DNA from: Chloroflexi bacterium HGW-Chloroflexi-2
GTDB taxonomy: Bacteria > Chloroflexota > Anaerolineae > Anaerolineales > Anaerolineaceae
Length of the DNA stretch: 64,000 bases
Assembly (NCBI GenBank): GCA_002840735.1
Contig: PHBY01000003.1
Coordinates: forward strand, 62,001-126,000
Direction: 5' to 3'
A program made the translations under genes and the position numbers. Every line of letters begins with the position of its first letter. The stretch's first letter is position 1. The notes below the pieces were generated by a model. It made no database searches. It worked only from the letters and a program-made list of their open reading frames with translations, and had not been told where the DNA came from. Below, piece after piece: positions 28,148 to 37,319 of the stretch.

Positions 28148-28849
28148 TTGATAAAAACTTTGATGCCAAAATTTAAATTCAATCGATTACAGTGGTTTGT
28201 TCATATCGGATCCATCATCCCTTTCCTGGTAATGCTATGGGATGCTTTTTCAAACAATTTAACCGTTAATCCAATCCAGGAAATCACGCAAAGAACAGGT
28301 CGGACGGCTATTATCTGGTTGGTTTTTTCACTGGCTTGTACACCGTTCAATGTTATTTTTGGCCTGCGTCCTTTTAATCAAGTCCGCCGTCCACTTGGTT
28401 TATATTCTGCTTTTTACGCAACATTGCATGTCATTACCTTTTTTGTCCTGGATTATGGTCTTAATTTGAAACTGATATGGCAAACGATTATTGAGAAGCC
28501 ATACATTCTTTTAGGTGTAACTGGATTCGTGATTCTATGTATATTGACATTTACTTCCACAAAAAAATCGATGCAAAAACTAGGTAAAAAATGGCATCAA
28601 CTACATCGCCTTGTTTATTTGGCTGCAATTATTCTATTGTTGCATTTCTTTATGGCCTTAAAATTCATTAATGCCCTTGCAATTACAATTGCGATTATTC
28701 TCGTTATCCTTCTTCTCATTCGAATCCCTATCATTCGCAAGTTTTTCATCAAAAGACAACCTGCCTGGTCAAGAACCGTTAACAATTATCTTACCGGAAG
28801 AAAAAAGAAAACAATCAATTCAAAAATAGACAATCCTGCGTTCAAATAA
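28148..28849 (+). CDS. msrQ: MsrQ-like haem-binding membrane protein
   Basis: A 233-residue protein with about six membrane helices in the ferric-reductase-like fold. Signature elements are TGRTAIIWLVFSLACTPF, RRPLGLYSAFYATLHV and KKWHQLHRLVYLAAIILLLHF, with His residues positioned to hold haem. MsrQ passes electrons to the periplasmic methionine sulfoxide reductase MsrP, but no msrP gene is adjacent. The start is TTG at 28148; ATG at 28163 is an alternative. No Shine-Dalgarno is obvious for either. Confidence 0.85.
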   Translation: MIKTLMPKFKFNRLQWFVHIGSIIPFLVMLWDAFSNNLTVNPIQEITQRTGRTAIIWLVFSLACTPFNVIFGLRPFNQVRRPLGLYSAFYATLHVITFFVLDYGLNLKLIWQTIIEKPYILLGVTGFVILCILTFTSTKKSMQKLGKKWHQLHRLVYLAAIILLLHFFMALKFINALAITIAIILVILLLIRIPIIRKFFIKRQPAWSRTVNNYLTGRKKKTINSKIDNPAFK

Positions 28850-28946: not shown

Positions 28947-31049
28947 ATGCTTTTTACAGACAATCAGGAACAAATTGCGAAACGAGCGCTTGAAAAAAGC
29001 GTATTCCTCACAGGATTTGCAGGCAGCGGAAAGACAACCATTGGAAAGATTTTTCTGAAATATCTATTGGAACAGGATATCCCCGGCAATAAGATCCTTG
29101 TTTTGGTGCCACAAAAATCATTGGGGATTACCTATTCAGAATTTTTGGAAAGTATAGAAAATTACAATGGTAACTTACCTGTTATCCAGACGATCAGTGG
29201 AATCAGTCAGAAAATTATTCGATTGTTTTGGCCAATCATTGCGCCACAATTTAATTTTATTAATCCTAATCACTACCCCACTTTTTTAAATATTGAATCT
29301 GCACAATATTTTATGGCGAAGGTATGTGAACCTTTTTTTGAAAAGAATTTTTTTTCATCCATAAAGTCTGAAAAACCAAGAATTCTCTCACAAATCCTGG
29401 ATAATCTCAACAAATCAGCGCTTGTTGGCTTTCCTCATGAAGAAATTGCAGAGCGATTAAAATCTGCATGGAGTAAGGAAAGTACTCACATATTAGCTTA
29501 CGATGAGGCGCAGGAATGCGCAAACGCGTTCAGAGATTACTGTCTGGAATTCAACCTCATTGACTTCTCGCTTCAATATGAAATTTTTACTCAAGTCATT
29601 CATAAATCGTTCTTAATTCAACAATATTTATTTAATAGTTATGAATATTTGATTTATGACAATTGTGAAGAAGATACGCCAGCAGCTCATGACCTCATCC
29701 TGAAATGGCTATCCGGGTTTAAAAGCGCGCTGGTAATCCAGGATGAAAATGCAGGATTTCGGTCTTTTTTGGGAGCAGATCCCACCAGTGCTGCCAGGTT
29801 ATCTAAAAGCTGTCAGGAAATCATTGAAGTTAATGATTCGTTTACATCAGATCCACCCATTCAGGAAATTATTTCGATTTATGCAAAAGCATTATCACAT
29901 CAGCCAATTGGTGGAATTTCAGAACCTGGATTTAAGAGATTCTCATTTCACCACCATAAATTTTTTCCGGATATGATCGACCAGGTCGTGCAACAAATTG
30001 ATGATTTCATCAAACAGGGAATCAACCCTGGAAAAATAGCAATTTTGGCACCATTTGTCAGTAATGCTCTTCGCTTTCAAATCCAACAAAGGATGAATCA
30101 AAAAAATATTAAATTGGTTACGCATCGCCCTTCTCGAAGTTTACGAGAGGAATCAATTACGCATGGCTTGATTTCGTGGACAAAACTGGCTTACCCGGAG
30201 TGGGGTCTATCACCTTCCATCTATCAATTCCGAACGGCGATTACACAAGCGATCGGGAATATGGATCCCGTTCGTGCTGATTTATTATCGCGTATTGTTT
30301 TATCCAAAAATACTACTTTTGCGCTGCGTCCAATGGATGAGGTCCGTCCTGAAATGTTGGAAAGAATCACAATCCAGGCAGTATTTCAATACCAGAAAAT
30401 ATATTCATGGTTAATGAATTATCAGAATAACAAATCTGAAGTCGATGTTTTTCTGGCGAGCTTCTTTGGAGAAATTTTATCTCAACCTGGATTTGGTTTT
30501 CACGAGAATTATGATGGCGCGGAAATTACTGGTAGATTGATTGAGTCCATGCAAAATTTTAGAAAGAATACTTTTTCACATTTTCAAAAAACCGGGGGAA
30601 ATTGGGCTCTGGATTACATCACCATGCTGGAAAATGGTCTCATTTCTGCTTTATATTTACAAACCTGGGACTTACCACCACAGGATGCTGTATATCTTGC
30701 GCCAGCCCATACTTTTTTAATGCAAAATAGACCTGTCGAAATGCAAATATGGTTGGATATTGGTAATATGGGTTGGTGGCAAAGGTTAATGCAACCACTT
30801 ACCCAACCCTATGTTTTATCAAGAAATTGGATAGATGGAATGAAATGGACTGATATCCATGAGTATGAAAATAATCAGAAAAATTTGGAGAAATTGATCA
30901 GTGGCTTATTACGTCGCTGTTCAGGCAATCTCATTCTTCATACAACCGGTTACAACGAAAATGGTGATGAACAAACTGGTCCCCTCCTGAAAGCTACGCA
31001 AAGAATACTGCGGACATATCATCGCCAGATTGGGCATCAAAATGTTTAG
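28947..31049 (+). CDS. AddB/AdnA-like helicase subunit with degenerate Walker B
   Basis: A 700-residue UvrD-superfamily protein. Walker A FAGSGKTT is intact near residues 25-32. The Walker B equivalent reads YLIYDNCEEDTPAAHDLI, so the usual DE-x-QD is broken. Motif III is altered to QDENAGFRSFLGADP. A second RecA-like half follows with KIAILAPFVSNALRFQIQQRM. I see no nuclease motif. This resembles the helicase-dead partner in AddAB/AdnAB pairs. Its end overlaps the active helicase gene by 8 nt, and the nuclease and recJ follow. First gene of the operon. Confidence 0.78.
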   Translation: MLFTDNQEQIAKRALEKSVFLTGFAGSGKTTIGKIFLKYLLEQDIPGNKILVLVPQKSLGITYSEFLESIENYNGNLPVIQTISGISQKIIRLFWPIIAPQFNFINPNHYPTFLNIESAQYFMAKVCEPFFEKNFFSSIKSEKPRILSQILDNLNKSALVGFPHEEIAERLKSAWSKESTHILAYDEAQECANAFRDYCLEFNLIDFSLQYEIFTQVIHKSFLIQQYLFNSYEYLIYDNCEEDTPAAHDLILKWLSGFKSALVIQDENAGFRSFLGADPTSAARLSKSCQEIIEVNDSFTSDPPIQEIISIYAKALSHQPIGGISEPGFKRFSFHHHKFFPDMIDQVVQQIDDFIKQGINPGKIAILAPFVSNALRFQIQQRMNQKNIKLVTHRPSRSLREESITHGLISWTKLAYPEWGLSPSIYQFRTAITQAIGNMDPVRADLLSRIVLSKNTTFALRPMDEVRPEMLERITIQAVFQYQKIYSWLMNYQNNKSEVDVFLASFFGEILSQPGFGFHENYDGAEITGRLIESMQNFRKNTFSHFQKTGGNWALDYITMLENGLISALYLQTWDLPPQDAVYLAPAHTFLMQNRPVEMQIWLDIGNMGWWQRLMQPLTQPYVLSRNWIDGMKWTDIHEYENNQKNLEKLISGLLRRCSGNLILHTTGYNENGDEQTGPLLKATQRILRTYHRQIGHQNV

Positions 31050-33291
31050 ACCAAGGCCAAAACAACTGGAGATTCTGAAATATACCAGTGGGAAAATGGG
31101 TATTTCTGCAGTTCCTGGGAGTGGAAAAACGCAGACCTTATCCTATCTGGCTGCCAATTTACTGTTTGAAGGCAGAATTGAAGATGACCAGGAAATCCTG
31201 GTCGTGACATTGGTAAATTCTGCAGTGAATAATTTTTCTACTCGAATCTCCGGTTTTATGGAATCTTTCGGATTGCTTCCCGGGGTCGGATACCGCGTCA
31301 GAACATTACATGGCTTGGCGCATGATATCGTTAGAGAACGACCTGATCTTGTTGGTTTAGGAAACGAATTTGAAATTATTGATGAACGTGAGACAAACCA
31401 AATCCTGGATACTTCCGTCGAAAGCTGGTTGAAACGAAATCCAAATTTTATCGATCGTTGGGGTAAACCGGATTATACAAATAATTTAAGTCGAAATCAG
31501 AAATCAGATTGGCAATCTGCTGTTTCATCAGTCTGTACAAATTTCATTCGCACAGCAAAAGATCTTCAATTATCCCCCCAGGAAATTTATTCAAGATTGT
31601 CTGACCTAAAAATTGATGACTCTTTACTGAATCTGGGTGCAGATATTTATGAAGACTATCAAAGAGCATTAAATTACCGATCCGCTGTTGATTTTGATGA
31701 TTTAATTCGCCTGGCTCTTATGTCCTTACAAATTGATCCCGATTATTTAAACCGTTTGAGATATCAATGGCCTTATATCCTTGAAGATGAAGCTCAGGAT
31801 AGCAGTCGCTTACAGGAAGTGATTTTACAAACACTTGTTGGAGAAAACGGTAATTGGGTGCGTGTTGGTGATCCAAACCAGGCAATATTTGAATCATTCA
31901 CCACTGCAAGTCCTGAATATTTAAAAAAATTCCTAGCCCATCCTGAGGTAAGCTCTAAAACGTTGCCGAATTCAGGTCGATCTACACAATCCATCATCAA
32001 TCTTGCCAATGAATTAATTCGTTGGACAAATCAAGAACACCCCAACCGTGCATTACGAAATTCATTAACAAAGCCATTCATTGAACCCACACCTAAATAT
32101 GACCCTCAACCCAACCCGGAAGACCGCCCGGAGAGGATATATTTTTTTGAAAAGGAACAATCATCTGAACAGGAAATTAAGAGTGTGGTGGGCTCTTTGG
32201 GTAAGTGGTTACCTGTAAATCCTGATAATACAGTGGCTGTCCTGGTTCCACGAAATTTCAGAGGTGGAAAAATTGTCGAGGCCCTCCAGAAAGAAAAAAT
32301 ACCTTATGTTGAAATTTTACAGACCAGCCAATCAACCAGAAATACTGCTGCCATTCTGGCTTCCATCCTGAATTTTGTAGAAAGCCCAAATCAGACCACG
32401 CGACTCTTAAAAATATTTGACTTCCTGTCACGAATCAAATTTTCAGTGTCCAAACAGACCAGGGAAGAAATCGTCAAGCTTATTCGAACTTGTAATTACC
32501 TGGAAGAATTCTTATTCCCCGTACCGGATCATGATTGGATTCAGCATTTATTAGAACAAGAAAAACCACCTGAAAATGAAATAATTCAGATTTTGCTTGA
32601 ACTCAGGACCCAATTATCTAGATGGTTAAAAGCAGCCGATTTACCAATACACCAAATCATAATCACCATCAGTCAGGAAATATTTGAAAAACCAGCCGAA
32701 TTAGCCCTGGCACACAAATTGGCACTCATTCTCGAACAATATGCCAAAAACCATCCTGATTGGTTGCTACCTCAGTTTGCTGAAGAATTAACATTAATTG
32801 CCGAAAATCGTAGAAAACTGCAGGGATTTTCCGACGAGGAATCAGGCTTTAATCCTGAAATGCATAAAGGAAAGGTCGTCGTCACAACCTACCACAAAGC
32901 CAAAGGGCTTGAGTGGGATCGGGTTTATTTGATGTCAGTAAACGATTATGATTTTCCTTCGGCATCGATAGGTGATCATTTTATATCAGAAAAACATATC
33001 TACAAAAATGAAATTAACCTGGAAGCAGAAATAAATCAAAAACTTAAGGCATTGGCAGAAAGCAATCTTGAAAACCTATACCTGGAATATGGGCTCGCAA
33101 CCGAACAAGCCAGATTAGAGTATGCAGCAGAAAGAATTCGCTTGTTTTTTGTTGGAATAACAAGAGCAAAAAAGGAATTGATCATTACCTGGAATACGGG
33201 TGACACGCATCATAAAAACACGAAAAAAGCTAATCCTTCTATACCATTCTTAGCCTTATCAGCTTTTTGGGAGAAACAAAATGAAATTTGA
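31042..33291 (+). CDS. UvrD/AddA-type SF1A DNA helicase
   Basis: A 749-residue superfamily 1A helicase with all motifs intact: Walker A VPGSGKTQT, motif Ic region RTLHGLAHDIV, Walker B LEDEAQD, motif III VRVGDPNQAIFESF, motif V VVTTYHKAKGLEWDRVYL and motif VI RLFFVGITRAKKEL. Unlike AddA it ends right after motif VI and lacks a fused nuclease. I chose ATG 31042, which overlaps the previous gene by 8 nt; a TTG at 31030 is also in frame. The nuclease gene starts 11 nt before its stop. Likely the motor of a multi-subunit end-resection enzyme. Confidence 0.92.
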   Translation: MFRPRPKQLEILKYTSGKMGISAVPGSGKTQTLSYLAANLLFEGRIEDDQEILVVTLVNSAVNNFSTRISGFMESFGLLPGVGYRVRTLHGLAHDIVRERPDLVGLGNEFEIIDERETNQILDTSVESWLKRNPNFIDRWGKPDYTNNLSRNQKSDWQSAVSSVCTNFIRTAKDLQLSPQEIYSRLSDLKIDDSLLNLGADIYEDYQRALNYRSAVDFDDLIRLALMSLQIDPDYLNRLRYQWPYILEDEAQDSSRLQEVILQTLVGENGNWVRVGDPNQAIFESFTTASPEYLKKFLAHPEVSSKTLPNSGRSTQSIINLANELIRWTNQEHPNRALRNSLTKPFIEPTPKYDPQPNPEDRPERIYFFEKEQSSEQEIKSVVGSLGKWLPVNPDNTVAVLVPRNFRGGKIVEALQKEKIPYVEILQTSQSTRNTAAILASILNFVESPNQTTRLLKIFDFLSRIKFSVSKQTREEIVKLIRTCNYLEEFLFPVPDHDWIQHLLEQEKPPENEIIQILLELRTQLSRWLKAADLPIHQIIITISQEIFEKPAELALAHKLALILEQYAKNHPDWLLPQFAEELTLIAENRRKLQGFSDEESGFNPEMHKGKVVVTTYHKAKGLEWDRVYLMSVNDYDFPSASIGDHFISEKHIYKNEINLEAEINQKLKALAESNLENLYLEYGLATEQARLEYAAERIRLFFVGITRAKKELIITWNTGDTHHKNTKKANPSIPFLALSAFWEKQNEI

Positions 33292-34102
33292 TTATTCTCA
33301 GAACAAGCTTCATGATTACCTGGAATGTCCCCGCAGATTTGAATTACGGTATCTTTTACAAAGAATTTGGCCGGCAGTACATACAGAACCGGTTCTGGAG
33401 TTGGAAGAGCAAATCAATAATGGAAAAATCTTTCACCTTATGGCTCAACAATATTTCAGTGGCATAAATCCGGATGTCATCTTATTGCAGGTTGAAAATG
33501 TAAAAATTTCCACCTGGTGGAAAGCATTTCTCACCTTTGCAGAATCATACAATAATTTACCTCATCAATCCGAGGTAATGATTTCTTCAAAAATTAATAA
33601 TAAAAGCTTTATGGGTGTTTTTGATTTACTGGTTTACTCACCAGGAGAGAAAATTACCATCATTGATTGGAAAACAAATCACAACAGACCTTCCAGGAAA
33701 AATTTGGAACAACACATACAAACACGCCTTTATCCATTGTTATTAATTTCCGGCGGAAAACAATGGAACAATAACAATAAAATTAAACCCGACCAGATTG
33801 AGATGATTTATTGGTTTGCCAACTATCCAGATGAACCGCAATCATTTTTATATTCTGAACAACAATTTCAAACAGATCTAATTTTTATTCAGGATTTGAT
33901 TAACCAAATTGAAACTACTAAATCAGGAGAATTTCCATTAACCACTAATCAAAAAAGATGTGATTTTTGCAATTATCGTTCTCTATGTGGTCGAGGATCA
34001 AAACCTGGCTCAACATTGGAACTGGATAACTTGGATTTAGAATATCTCTACGAAGAAATAGAAGAGATCGACATGAACCAGATTGGAGATATTGCTTTTT
34101 AA
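33281..34102 (+). CDS. PD-(D/E)XK nuclease with Fe-S cluster motif
   Basis: A 273-residue RecB/Cas4-type nuclease. C16 in YLECPRRF and the trio C227, C230, C236 (CDFCNYRSLC) match the four-Cys cluster site of AddB, AdnA and Cas4. The active site has H52 (GKIFHLM), D115 (GVFDLL), D129 and K131 (IIDWKT), then QTRLYP with Gln and Tyr. All residues needed for cleavage seem present. GGGAG lies before the ATG. It overlaps the helicase gene by 11 nt, and recJ starts 3 nt after it. It probably supplies the nuclease that the two helicase-like subunits lack. Confidence 0.9.
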   Translation: MKFDYSQNKLHDYLECPRRFELRYLLQRIWPAVHTEPVLELEEQINNGKIFHLMAQQYFSGINPDVILLQVENVKISTWWKAFLTFAESYNNLPHQSEVMISSKINNKSFMGVFDLLVYSPGEKITIIDWKTNHNRPSRKNLEQHIQTRLYPLLLISGGKQWNNNNKIKPDQIEMIYWFANYPDEPQSFLYSEQQFQTDLIFIQDLINQIETTKSGEFPLTTNQKRCDFCNYRSLCGRGSKPGSTLELDNLDLEYLYEEIEEIDMNQIGDIAF

Positions 34103-34104
34103 TC

Positions 34105-36420
34105 ATGGCTACTGATCAATGGGTTGAAAAGAAAAAAATTCCAATTCCGAAGGAAATTCAGGAAAATTTTCCCAATCCATGGGTCCAACAGATATTAGTC
34201 CGCAATAATGTCTTCGATCTTGAAGCTGCACAAAGGTTTGTTAACCCATCACTTTATATTCCTACTCCTTCATCAGAATTACCGGATCTCGATGGTGCTG
34301 CCCAACGATTATTGGAAGCCATAGCGAACCAGGAATTAATTGGAATTTGGGGCGATTTTGACGTAGATGGTCAGACAGCTACCACTGTACTCTATGAAGG
34401 TCTGTTAAATCTGGGGGCAAATGTTATTTACTACATTCCCGTTCGCTCAAAAGAATCTCATGGGATTAAGTTGAGTTCTTTAAAAGAATTTCTCAAAAAA
34501 GGAATTTCTATCCTTTTGACTTGTGATACAGGAATCAGTGAGCATGAATCAATTGAATATGCCAACCACCAGGGTGTCGATGTTCTGATCACAGATCACC
34601 ATAGCTTGCCAGAAATTCTCCCAGATGCCATGGCAAAAGTCAACCCGCAGCGATTACCAGAAGCACATCCTTTGAGAACCCTTTCCGGTGTTGGTGTAAC
34701 GTACAAACTCATTGAAAGGTTATATCAATTTTCAGGTAAAAATGACGATTGCGTTGCTTCCTTAGATCTGGTTGCATTGGGTACCGTTGCTGATGTGGCA
34801 ATTTTGACTGGAGAAAATCGTTATCTTGTCCAAATGGGGTTGCAACTTTTACAAAATCCGGCGAGAATTGGCTTACAGGAAATTTACAAAAACCGAAAAC
34901 TCCAGAATGGTCAGATTACAGAAACCCATATTGGTTTTTATCTCGCACCACTTCTGAACGCTCTTGGTCGATTGTCCGACGCCAATCCGGTTGTTGAATT
35001 CCTGACAACCAACGATCTGCAAATAGCGAAAGTTTTTGCCGCACAATTAGAAAATATTAACGAACGACGAAAATTAATTACAGAACAGATCACCGAATCA
35101 ATTCTTTCGAAATTTGAACAAAATAAAGAATTACAGAATGAACCAGCCATCATCATGCATCATCCTGATTGGGAAGCAGGTGTACTTGGTATTGTAGCCA
35201 ATCGCCTGGTTGAGATTTATCAGAAACCCACAATTTTATTAACGGGGAATGATGATACTGGCTATTTCGGCTCGGCACGTTCAATCGAGAATTTAAATAT
35301 CATTCAGGCAATCCAGGAAAATGCAGTCTTCCTTAAGCACTTTGGAGGACATGCAATGGCTGCAGGTCTCTCCCTGGAGCCGGATAAATTAGCATCATTC
35401 CAGGCTGGTTTTAACAAAACAGTCCTGAATACAGTGGGTGAAACCATTTTTCAAAAAGAGTTACAAATTGATGGATTTATCAATTTTGATTTGATTACAA
35501 TGGATTTTGTAAGAGAATTGGAAAAATTGGCTCCTTTTGGTCCCGGTAACCCGGCACCATTATTTGCCAGCAAAGATGTAATCCTTGAGAAAATCCGGAA
35601 AATGGGCAGAAAATCGGAACATTTAAAGATCACAGCTGTAGATGCACTCGAAAATATTCAGGAATTAATTTGGTGGCGTGCCAGTCAGGAGGATCTTCCT
35701 GACGAAAAAATGGATATTGCCTATCATTTACATAGTTCGAACTATCAGGGCAAACCGAGTGTTCAGGTTGAAATATTAGCCATTAAACCCACTGAAACAA
35801 CTTTGGCTGAAATTTACACAAAAAATGAAGCGCTTGAAGTCATTGATTATCGAAACGATTCGCCTGGTAATCAAGAATGGCTGGAAAAATACAACGATAT
35901 CCTCTGGTATCAGGAAGGACTGAAGAAGGATTTTTCACCGGCTCACAACCGTCTCAATTTACACCCAGCCAATACATTAATCATTTTTACTATTCCGCCA
36001 AACTTAACAGAATTACAGAAAGTGTATATAACAGTTCGCCCAAAGCACCTGGTTCTTTTTGGACATCCACCACTTGAAAAATCTTTAAACCTGTTGATTA
36101 AAACGATAGCTGGGATGTTAAATCACGTTATCAAAAATCGAAACGGATTATTCCAACCATTTGAAATAGCCGTTGCAATTGGACAGCGAAAAACAACGGT
36201 GGAAACTGTCTGCAGATACTTACGTGCAATCGGTCAAATAACTTTACTGGAACATCCTGATACACAATGGTTGGTCAAACACGGAGGGGAAAAAGATGCA
36301 ATCAAAGCAGAGTTGTATCAACAAAATATTGATTTTTTATACAGGGAAACACATGCTTTTTATAATTGGTTTAAAGAGGTAGATCTGGATAAATTACAAA
36401 AATCCATGTTTGATTTTTAA
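34105..36420 (+). CDS. recJ: Single-stranded-DNA exonuclease RecJ
   Basis: A 771-residue DHH-family 5'-3' exonuclease used in recombination and mismatch repair. DFDVDGQT at about 84-91, LLTCDTGISEHE, the DHH motif ITDHH near 163, LVALGTVADVA, and the DHHA1 signature HFGGHAMAAGLSL. An OB domain follows. About 200 extra C-terminal residues form a long-RecJ extension, including a winged-helix-like stretch GLFQPFEIAVAIGQRKTTV. It is the last gene of the helicase-nuclease operon. Confidence 0.95.
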   Translation: MATDQWVEKKKIPIPKEIQENFPNPWVQQILVRNNVFDLEAAQRFVNPSLYIPTPSSELPDLDGAAQRLLEAIANQELIGIWGDFDVDGQTATTVLYEGLLNLGANVIYYIPVRSKESHGIKLSSLKEFLKKGISILLTCDTGISEHESIEYANHQGVDVLITDHHSLPEILPDAMAKVNPQRLPEAHPLRTLSGVGVTYKLIERLYQFSGKNDDCVASLDLVALGTVADVAILTGENRYLVQMGLQLLQNPARIGLQEIYKNRKLQNGQITETHIGFYLAPLLNALGRLSDANPVVEFLTTNDLQIAKVFAAQLENINERRKLITEQITESILSKFEQNKELQNEPAIIMHHPDWEAGVLGIVANRLVEIYQKPTILLTGNDDTGYFGSARSIENLNIIQAIQENAVFLKHFGGHAMAAGLSLEPDKLASFQAGFNKTVLNTVGETIFQKELQIDGFINFDLITMDFVRELEKLAPFGPGNPAPLFASKDVILEKIRKMGRKSEHLKITAVDALENIQELIWWRASQEDLPDEKMDIAYHLHSSNYQGKPSVQVEILAIKPTETTLAEIYTKNEALEVIDYRNDSPGNQEWLEKYNDILWYQEGLKKDFSPAHNRLNLHPANTLIIFTIPPNLTELQKVYITVRPKHLVLFGHPPLEKSLNLLIKTIAGMLNHVIKNRNGLFQPFEIAVAIGQRKTTVETVCRYLRAIGQITLLEHPDTQWLVKHGGEKDAIKAELYQQNIDFLYRETHAFYNWFKEVDLDKLQKSMFDF

Positions 36421-36867: not shown

Positions 36868-36923
36868 CATATGTTGTTTTGATGTGGGAAGTTCTGGTTG
36901 ATCGAACACAATCGGAGTTGTTG

Positions 36924-37319
36924 ATGAGTAGAGGCTTGAATAAAGTCATGATAATTGGATATCTGGGACGCGATCCTGAGATGCGGGTAACACCCTCAGG
37001 GCGAGCTGTGACAACATTTGTTATTGCTTGTAATCGATCCTGGAATTCTTCTGATGGTGAACGTCATCTTGAAACCGAATGGTTCAATGTTGTGACCTGG
37101 GGAAATCTTGCTGAGATTTGTAAACAATATCTGTTCAAGGGTTTACAGGTTTACATCGAAGGACGGCTTCAATCCAGACGCTGGGAGGATACAGAAGGTT
37201 GTAAACATACCAGTGTGGAAATTGTTGCCTCTGAGATGATGATCCTGGGAGACCGAAAAGAGATCAACACTCAAACTCCTCCATCTACGCTTGAAGTAAA
37301 CGATAATTATTCCGTATAG
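36924..37319 (+). CDS. ssb: Single-stranded DNA-binding protein lacking the acidic tip
   Basis: A 131-residue OB-fold SSB ([59 protein letters not shown]). The C-terminus ends in LEVNDNYSV and lacks the acidic DDDIPF-type tip that recruits repair enzymes in most bacterial SSBs. The ATG at 36924 has CGGAG 6 nt upstream, and the S-x-G-L-N-K start is normal. Upstream in-frame TTG/ATG codons would add a foreign-looking leader. It sits between rpsF and rpsR as in many bacteria. Confidence 0.94.

Follow-up and report, generated by a model that had tools for sequence, protein, structure and literature searches.

Four co-directional genes on the forward strand of a 64,000-nucleotide stretch of the genome of Chloroflexi bacterium HGW-Chloroflexi-2 (the window), at positions 28947-36420 in the open reading frame (ORF) list, encode a helicase-fold protein with a degenerate motor (P1), an intact UvrD/PcrA-type helicase (P2), a separate RecB-family nuclease (P3) and a long RecJ. 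P1, P2 and P3 are a real, near all-or-none conserved module and, by sequence comparison, the operonic RecJ belongs to it. Taken together the four genes are read here as an AddAB/AdnAB-like DNA-end-processing module made of separate chains, a reading to which we give about as much credence as doubt. The genes are as follows.

28947-31049, forward strand: P1, helicase-fold subunit with degenerate motor, 700 residues (Pfam, AlphaFold2 model)
31030-33291, forward strand: P2, intact UvrD/PcrA-type superfamily 1A (SF1A) helicase, 753 residues from the TTG at 31030 (Pfam, motifs)
33281-34102, forward strand: P3, RecB/AddB/AdnA-type nuclease, 273 residues (PDDEXK_1, model)
34105-36420, forward strand: long RecJ, the second RecJ of the genome, 771 residues (TIGR00644, tree)

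P1 overlaps P2, which overlaps P3, and 2 bases separate P3 from RecJ; the ORF coordinates agree in this with the initial annotation, which had the four genes overlapping or almost touching. An in-frame ATG at 31042 is an alternative start for P2. A scan for promoters and terminators gave sites no more numerous than in shuffled sequences.

Among 199 genomes of the class, many of them draft assemblies, P1 was found in 109, P2, with the threshold set at E 1e-80, in 104 and P3 in 101. All three are present in 92 genomes, any of them in 113, and one or two in 21. Cross-tabulated, P1 and P2 occur together in 101 genomes, P1 without P2 in 8, P2 without P1 in 3 and neither in 87, the corresponding figures for P1 and P3 being 97, 12, 4 and 86. 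Weaker hits were left uncounted for P1 (G014, E 2.1e-4; G072, 1.4e-4), for P3 (G104, G119, G135 and G178, E 7.9e-9 to 1.1e-4) and for AddB (G192, 9.2e-4). In families f36 and f39 the trio is complete in 18 of 18 sampled genomes with its genes on different contigs or at least about 20 kb apart in the listed positions, linkage being ambiguous in a few genomes (e.g. G133) where two of the genes lie at contig edges. Two cases are the clearest: in genome G067 P1 (near 2.22 Mb), P2 (near 0.20 Mb) and P3 (near 1.03 Mb) are spread over three contigs, and in the single contig of G027 P1 lies near 3.468, P2 near 3.480, P3 near 3.598 and a long RecJ near 2.723 Mb. Retention of the trio without adjacency argues for joint function.

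Gene order was followed in 80 named loci out of 517 relatives, the nearest to the window being from Chloroflexi/Anaerolineaceae genomes with 91-92% identity in P1; with 80 of the 517 covered, P1 may also occur in other phyla. At least 6.5 kb of sequence is available downstream of P1 in 53 of the 80; P2, P3 and RecJ are present at some position of the locus in 39 of these, P2 and P3 in 7, P2 only in 3 and none of them in 4. The gap between P1 and P2 is at most 25 bases in 35 of 49 cases and that between P3 and RecJ at most 57 in 31 of 39, the remainder having insertions. Across the window and the 80 loci, each of the 257 copies found has the same orientation as P1. The same order, P1, P2, P3, RecJ, is found in a second phylum, on plasmid pSR56 of Salinibacter ruber M8, where the genes are annotated as hypothetical protein, ATP-dependent helicase, PD-(D/E)XK nuclease and RecJ. 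The pSR56 P1 is 35% identical over 98% of the query and keeps the Walker A and D-N-x-E-E motifs, with no helicase detected by Pfam. Recurrence in named Chloroflexota loci and on the Salinibacter plasmid indicates that the arrangement is not due to chance. Apart from Salinibacter, plasmids yielded a single match to P1, an Ilyobacter protein with a UvrD domain (coverage 34-61%, identity 19-26%), and the pSR56 P2 (at 1e-40) and P3 (at 1e-5) matched only themselves among plasmids. Of 251 genomes sampled within the phylum, 25 have full-length P1 (E <1e-100), each of them belonging to the same class or to a closer group; none was found in about 220 genomes of other classes, where residual matches are short and at 1.7e-9 or worse.

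P1 carries two diagnostic motifs.

29013-29039, forward strand: Walker A (GFAGSGKTT) of P1
29658-29675, forward strand: altered motif II (DNCEED) of P1, from a 75-row alignment

The protein matches the Pfam UvrD-helicase model with 28.2 bits (cut-off 23). Of 72 readable rows, 71 have the Lys of Walker A and the other has Thr. Motif II reads D-N-x-E-E-D; the position of the catalytic Glu is Asn in 74 of the 75 rows and Gln in one, Glu241 and Glu242 are invariant, and motif III has Ala or Gly instead of its Gln throughout the 75 rows. One homologue in which Thr substitutes for the Lys of Walker A (L020:927-3047) suggests, from its sequence, that ATP binding by P1 may not always be required. An AlphaFold2 model based on the 75-row alignment is a complete SF1A helicase with a mean predicted local distance difference test score (pLDDT) of 90.0. 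It superposes on five AdnB chains over 587-618 residues with root-mean-square deviations (rmsd) of 4.3-4.8 Å and Z scores of 23.2-25.7, more residues being aligned, at a lower rmsd, than with the UvrD/PcrA/Rep chains of highest Z. Residues 17-692 also match the helicase-like half of AddB, residues 2-696, with Z about 22 at about 6 Å. Against a single AddA sequence the alignment is limited to the Walker A region. In its modelled fold and predicted active-site state P1 is AddB-like, which does not extend to demonstrated descent.

P2 matches the Pfam UvrD-helicase and UvrD_C models with 151 and 91 bits and retains the motifs G-x-GKT, DEAQD, GDxNQ and TRA in 28 of 28 aligned rows. The protein stops shortly past motif VI, and Pfam detects no PDDEXK or other nuclease domain in it. 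Against the AddA model TIGR02785 it scores 66 bits, below the cut-off of 707.65, as does the fused AddA of the same genome with 317.

The nuclease activity would instead reside in P3, with the following features.

33326-33328, forward strand: first Cys (Cys16) of the presumed Fe-S motif of P3
33665-33673, forward strand: catalytic D-W-K (Asp129, Trp130, Lys131) of P3
33959-33988, forward strand: C-x2-C-x5-C (Cys227, Cys230, Cys236) of P3
34055-34099, forward strand: C-terminal tip of P3, EIEEIDMNQIGDIAF, resembling the tip of single-stranded DNA-binding protein (SSB) and lying behind an acidic, low-confidence linker (end-pattern count)

P3 matches PDDEXK_1 with 98 bits. Both parts of the Cys motif are invariant in 21 of 21 rows, as are Trp130 and Lys131; Asp115 is kept in all 21 rows and Asp129 in at least 90% of them. 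The model has a mean pLDDT of 85.4, falling below 50 for residues 253-273. Its best structural match is the nuclease domain of AdnA (Z 18.8, rmsd 2.8 Å, 216 residues aligned), followed by the Argonaute-associated Cas4-like ACE1 (15.3), the AddB nuclease (14.1), RecE (12.9) and Cas4 (12.5), and by profile it matches the AddB C-terminus with E 1.3e-8. Assignment as a CRISPR Cas4 was rejected, since TIGR00372 has a cut-off of 65 bits and P3 scores 24.1 with it. The domain assignments of the initial annotation are upheld by these alignments: P1 with an intact Walker A and a broken Walker B motif, P2 as a fully intact UvrD-type helicase without a nuclease, and P3 as a RecB/Cas4-type nuclease with a four-Cys Fe-S motif, for which the cluster itself is predicted.

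The SSB tip recruits many partner proteins, and in Escherichia coli RecJ is one of them. At the very C-terminus of P3 the consensus is often LDFxQIxEIxF, and an ending of the form [DE][IVTL]x[FYIL] is present in 47 of 57 P3 proteins, compared with 2 among 806 flanking ORFs and none among 197 ORFs for P1, P2 or RecJ; since the P3 rows are related, this count measures conservation rather than independent gains. The last residues are DDEIPF in the SSB encoded on contig 40 of the genome and AEIPF in one P3 (L061). Judging from these sequences, the tip may dock RecJ.

35776-36417, forward strand: C-terminal extension of the operonic RecJ past its core, the TIGR00644 match stopping at residue 557

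The operonic RecJ has the Pfam domains DHH, DHHA1 and RecJ_OB and scores 516 bits with TIGR00644 (cut-off 396.9). The other RecJ of the genome, on contig 7, is shorter, with an open frame of 565 and a protein of 560 residues. In the 60 genomes examined, an open RecJ frame of at least 700 residues occurs in 24 of 31 with P1 and in 1 of 29 lacking it; the seven exceptions among the former include two in which RecJ is cut at a contig edge (G005, G028) and one with RecJ beside P3 (G022). A quick tree was made from 27 of 45 operonic RecJ proteins (the window and Salinibacter kept, 25 chosen at random) and 30 further RecJ proteins. The operonic proteins, with that of the Salinibacter plasmid among them, fall on one side of a split with support 100 together with the long RecJ of G027, which is unlinked (L200, to which the script gave the label housekeeping), and the other 29 lie on the opposite side. 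RecJ had been proposed as part of the set, and a second, distinct RecJ clade does accompany the trio.

In the mechanism proposed here P2 would be the ATP-driven 3'-5' motor and P1 a non-motor subunit of AddB/RecC type, serving as a DNA clamp or regulator. P3 would be the Fe-S nuclease, which in AddAB and AdnAB is fused to AddB or AdnA, and would cut the 5'-ended strand. Missing from the module would be the AddA-side nuclease, the cutter of the 3'-ended strand. In AddAB the nuclease of AddB, whose counterpart is AdnA, degrades the 5'-terminated strand, and Chi prevents the 3'-terminated strand from reaching the nuclease of AddA, according to the sections consulted of PMC4824097. From that polarity and that action of Chi a Chi-independent machine producing 3' overhangs would be expected: with the AddA-side nuclease missing, only the 5'-ended strand would be degraded, a 3' overhang would be left and a Chi-type switch would be unneeded. 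The long RecJ, a 5'-3' single-strand exonuclease, would act on the same strand, possibly docked by the SSB-like peptide of P3. Activity, complex formation, strand polarity, docking of RecJ and the biological role of the module are what we infer.

A number of observations weigh against an AddAB/AdnAB-like module. The eight highest Z scores of the P1 model are with UvrD, PcrA and Rep structures (25.9-28.9, rmsd 4.8-10.7, 503-565 residues), and it aligns also with an AddA chain (Z 21.6, 5.1 Å) and with RecB chains (Z 17.1-20.1); with several SF1 helicase families aligning, the assignment to AddB is not specific. By profile P1 matches AddB with E 5.3e-5 and P2 with E 4.5e-6, so AddB is no closer, and the best-scoring models for P2 are PcrA and Rep, not AddA. 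The P3 tip lacks the Pro of true SSB in nearly all cases, and the pattern is missing in 10 of 57. The genomes of the survey are also kin to one another, so that p-values for association overstate the evidence. The leading place of UvrD/PcrA/Rep structures for P1 and of PcrA/Rep models for P2 would suit an alternative in which P2, P3 and RecJ cooperate loosely at stalled forks or single-strand gaps, P1 binds DNA as a regulator and there is no AddAB-like complex, and an unfused UvrD and Cas4-like operon for which roles such as DNA repair have been suggested (PMC5704561, from the part consulted) points the same way. We consider this unlikely in view of the near all-or-none retention of P1, P2 and P3 even when they are not adjacent, of the full-length helicase fold and conserved altered active site of P1, as expected of a subunit, and of the closeness of P3 to the AdnA nuclease domain.

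The remaining points of this kind concern AddAB itself. The source genome (4.1 Mb, 99.87% complete) has PDDEXK_1 matches at three places, namely P3 and two on contig 37, where adjoining genes encode a 1087-residue AddA-like protein (317 bits) and a 1015-residue AddB-like protein (153 bits), both below the model cut-offs. The initial annotation had named addAB elsewhere in the genome as grounds for its own rejection, and such a fused pair is present; the trio as the only AddAB of the genome is ruled out, and in this organism it is an additional system. The description of the set as a split AddAB/AdnAB-like machine survives insofar as the parts are spread over three proteins. It does not survive as a statement of descent: with P1 no nearer to AddB than to P2, and P2 matching PcrA/Rep best, an origin by splitting of AddAB is not shown. 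Across the class AddB was found in 62 of 199 genomes, a set used in place of an AddB profile search that was positive in 164 of 199, mostly because UvrD-type frames were matched over a short length. P1 and AddB are both present in 40 genomes, P1 only in 69, AddB only in 22 and neither in 68 (p 0.067); their presence looks independent, and the trio was rejected as an AddAB replacement. Nine genomes with a completeness of 95% or more have the trio but yielded no AddB, and in them P3 is the sole match to PDDEXK_1, a model sensitive enough to find the AddA of the source genome at 1.5e-6; by these matches the trio may be the only RecB-type enzyme there. The fused pair could also be taken to mean that the trio is a decayed or redundant AddAB copy with no distinct role. 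Conservation of the P2 motor and P3 nuclease residues, retention of the set across the class and an intact unit on a plasmid of another phylum make that very improbable.

The surroundings of the cassette bear on a further explanation. Directly upstream of it on pSR56 (L173:8059-9925) are genes for an XRE regulator with Peptidase_M78 and for a 202-residue protein without a Pfam match, which look like a regulator or toxin-antitoxin pair, and about 3.6 kb downstream (L173:21452-25390) is a gene for a 1312-residue DEAD-box helicase whose core is DpdF-like and which also matches DUF559 weakly. Transposon mutants of Synechococcus elongatus, affected in a Cas4-like gene, the pcrA paralogue uvrD, the recJ paralogue recJcy or a PD-(D/E)XK gene, showed raised RSF1010 transfer or maintenance and benefits to natural transformation (PMC10653904, in the part available). 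The pSR56 copy, complete and lying between the XRE/M78 regulator and the DpdF-like helicase gene, and this phenotype from the same list of parts make restriction of foreign DNA, whether plasmid, transforming or phage DNA, the main rival as the chief role of the cassette. Phage-type integrases among the proteins flanking the chromosomal loci (2 of 66) would also fit. The parallel with S. elongatus is one of kinds of enzyme. Against restriction, the chromosomal loci have a recurring housekeeping neighbourhood, with a dnaQ-like gene nearby in 25 and rpsF in 10 of the 80 named loci. The flanking sample of 66 proteins was drawn from 17 of 40 loci chosen by context, out of 359 candidates of at least 180 residues; it gave few matches in PADLOC (mad2 in 4 and other families in 1 each, among 25 of 39 families and with no background set), so a defence-island reading of these loci is not supported. 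A search of 50,697 phage records gave no match for P1, the 41 stretches returned by a pattern scan in viral contigs include no relative, and P2 has no phage match at 1e-20; a phage origin of the cassette is likewise unsupported. On balance restriction as the main function seems possible but rather unlikely.

Two further observations concern neighbours of the four genes in the window. Between the dnaQ-like exonuclease gene and P1 lies a gene for a ferric-reductase-like membrane protein (28148-28849), which occupies this position in five named loci also and is absent from most dnaQ-bearing loci. Downstream, in an rpsF-ssb-rpsR cluster, the SSB gene (36879-37319) has lost the usual -PF tip and the protein ends in NDNYSV; the tip is also lost in two close relatives (L043, L047), while at nine other loci the last two residues are -PF or -PY.

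RecBCD, AddAB and AdnAB are large fused motor-nuclease machines, and control of the nuclease by Chi is a classic problem. If the end-processing reading is true, a separate motor, dead motor and 5'-strand nuclease would allow the activities to be added singly in vitro, a module without a 3'-strand nuclease would show the purpose of the Chi switch, and the set would suggest how broken ends are dealt with in some Anaerolineae that lack AddAB. The plasmid cassette and the Synechococcus parallel link end resection to the restriction of foreign DNA. Tentatively, and with well under even confidence, the set could be a fourth class of end-resection machinery beside RecBCD, AddAB and AdnAB, in which three chains and a dedicated RecJ act with a nuclease for the 5' strand only and free of Chi. 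The SSB-mimicking tail of P3 would hand the 5' strand to RecJ, the cassette would move between phyla on plasmids and could be a cell's only RecB-type enzyme, and the UvrD, PD-(D/E)XK and RecJcy proteins of S. elongatus would be a possible counterpart.

Gabija combines GajA, an ATPase with a TOPRIM domain, with an adjoining GajB. It was rejected as an identification here: GajB models match P1 and P2 but suit any UvrD-type helicase, and no TOPRIM or GajA match to the four genes is present among the families listed (for P2, 25 of 47). A description of the four-gene system was likewise not found in open-access PubMed Central titles and abstract starts. The nearest published case seen is an unfused operon of UvrD and a Cas4-like (pfam12705) protein, mostly from Clostridiales, for which other processes such as DNA repair were suggested (PMC5704561). 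It resembles the present set in having a UvrD-type helicase adjoining a separate pfam12705 nuclease outside defence contexts, and it differs, as far as the consulted portion of that paper goes and by description only, in that neither P1 nor RecJ is mentioned (PMC5704561). S. elongatus has the same kinds of enzyme, including a second RecJ, and its mutants share a plasmid-maintenance phenotype; again by description only, the accessible part of the report describes no operon or complex (PMC10653904). Two recJ genes are present in many cyanobacteria (PMC5101192).

The likeness to AddAB lies in having a single live SF1A motor, a helicase-like subunit in which Walker A is kept and other motifs are lost, and one Fe-S RecB-family nuclease. 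AddB itself shows this pattern of motifs. Unlike AddAB, the trio has its nuclease as a separate protein, P1 covering only residues 2-696 of AddB, in which a helicase-like half and a nuclease are fused; there is no AddA-side nuclease, and a dedicated RecJ is present in the operon. In AdnAB both subunits carry a motor and a nuclease. P3 is nearest to the AdnA nuclease domain and P1 superposes on the AdnB motor, whereas the trio has no fusion of motor and nuclease and one nuclease rather than two.

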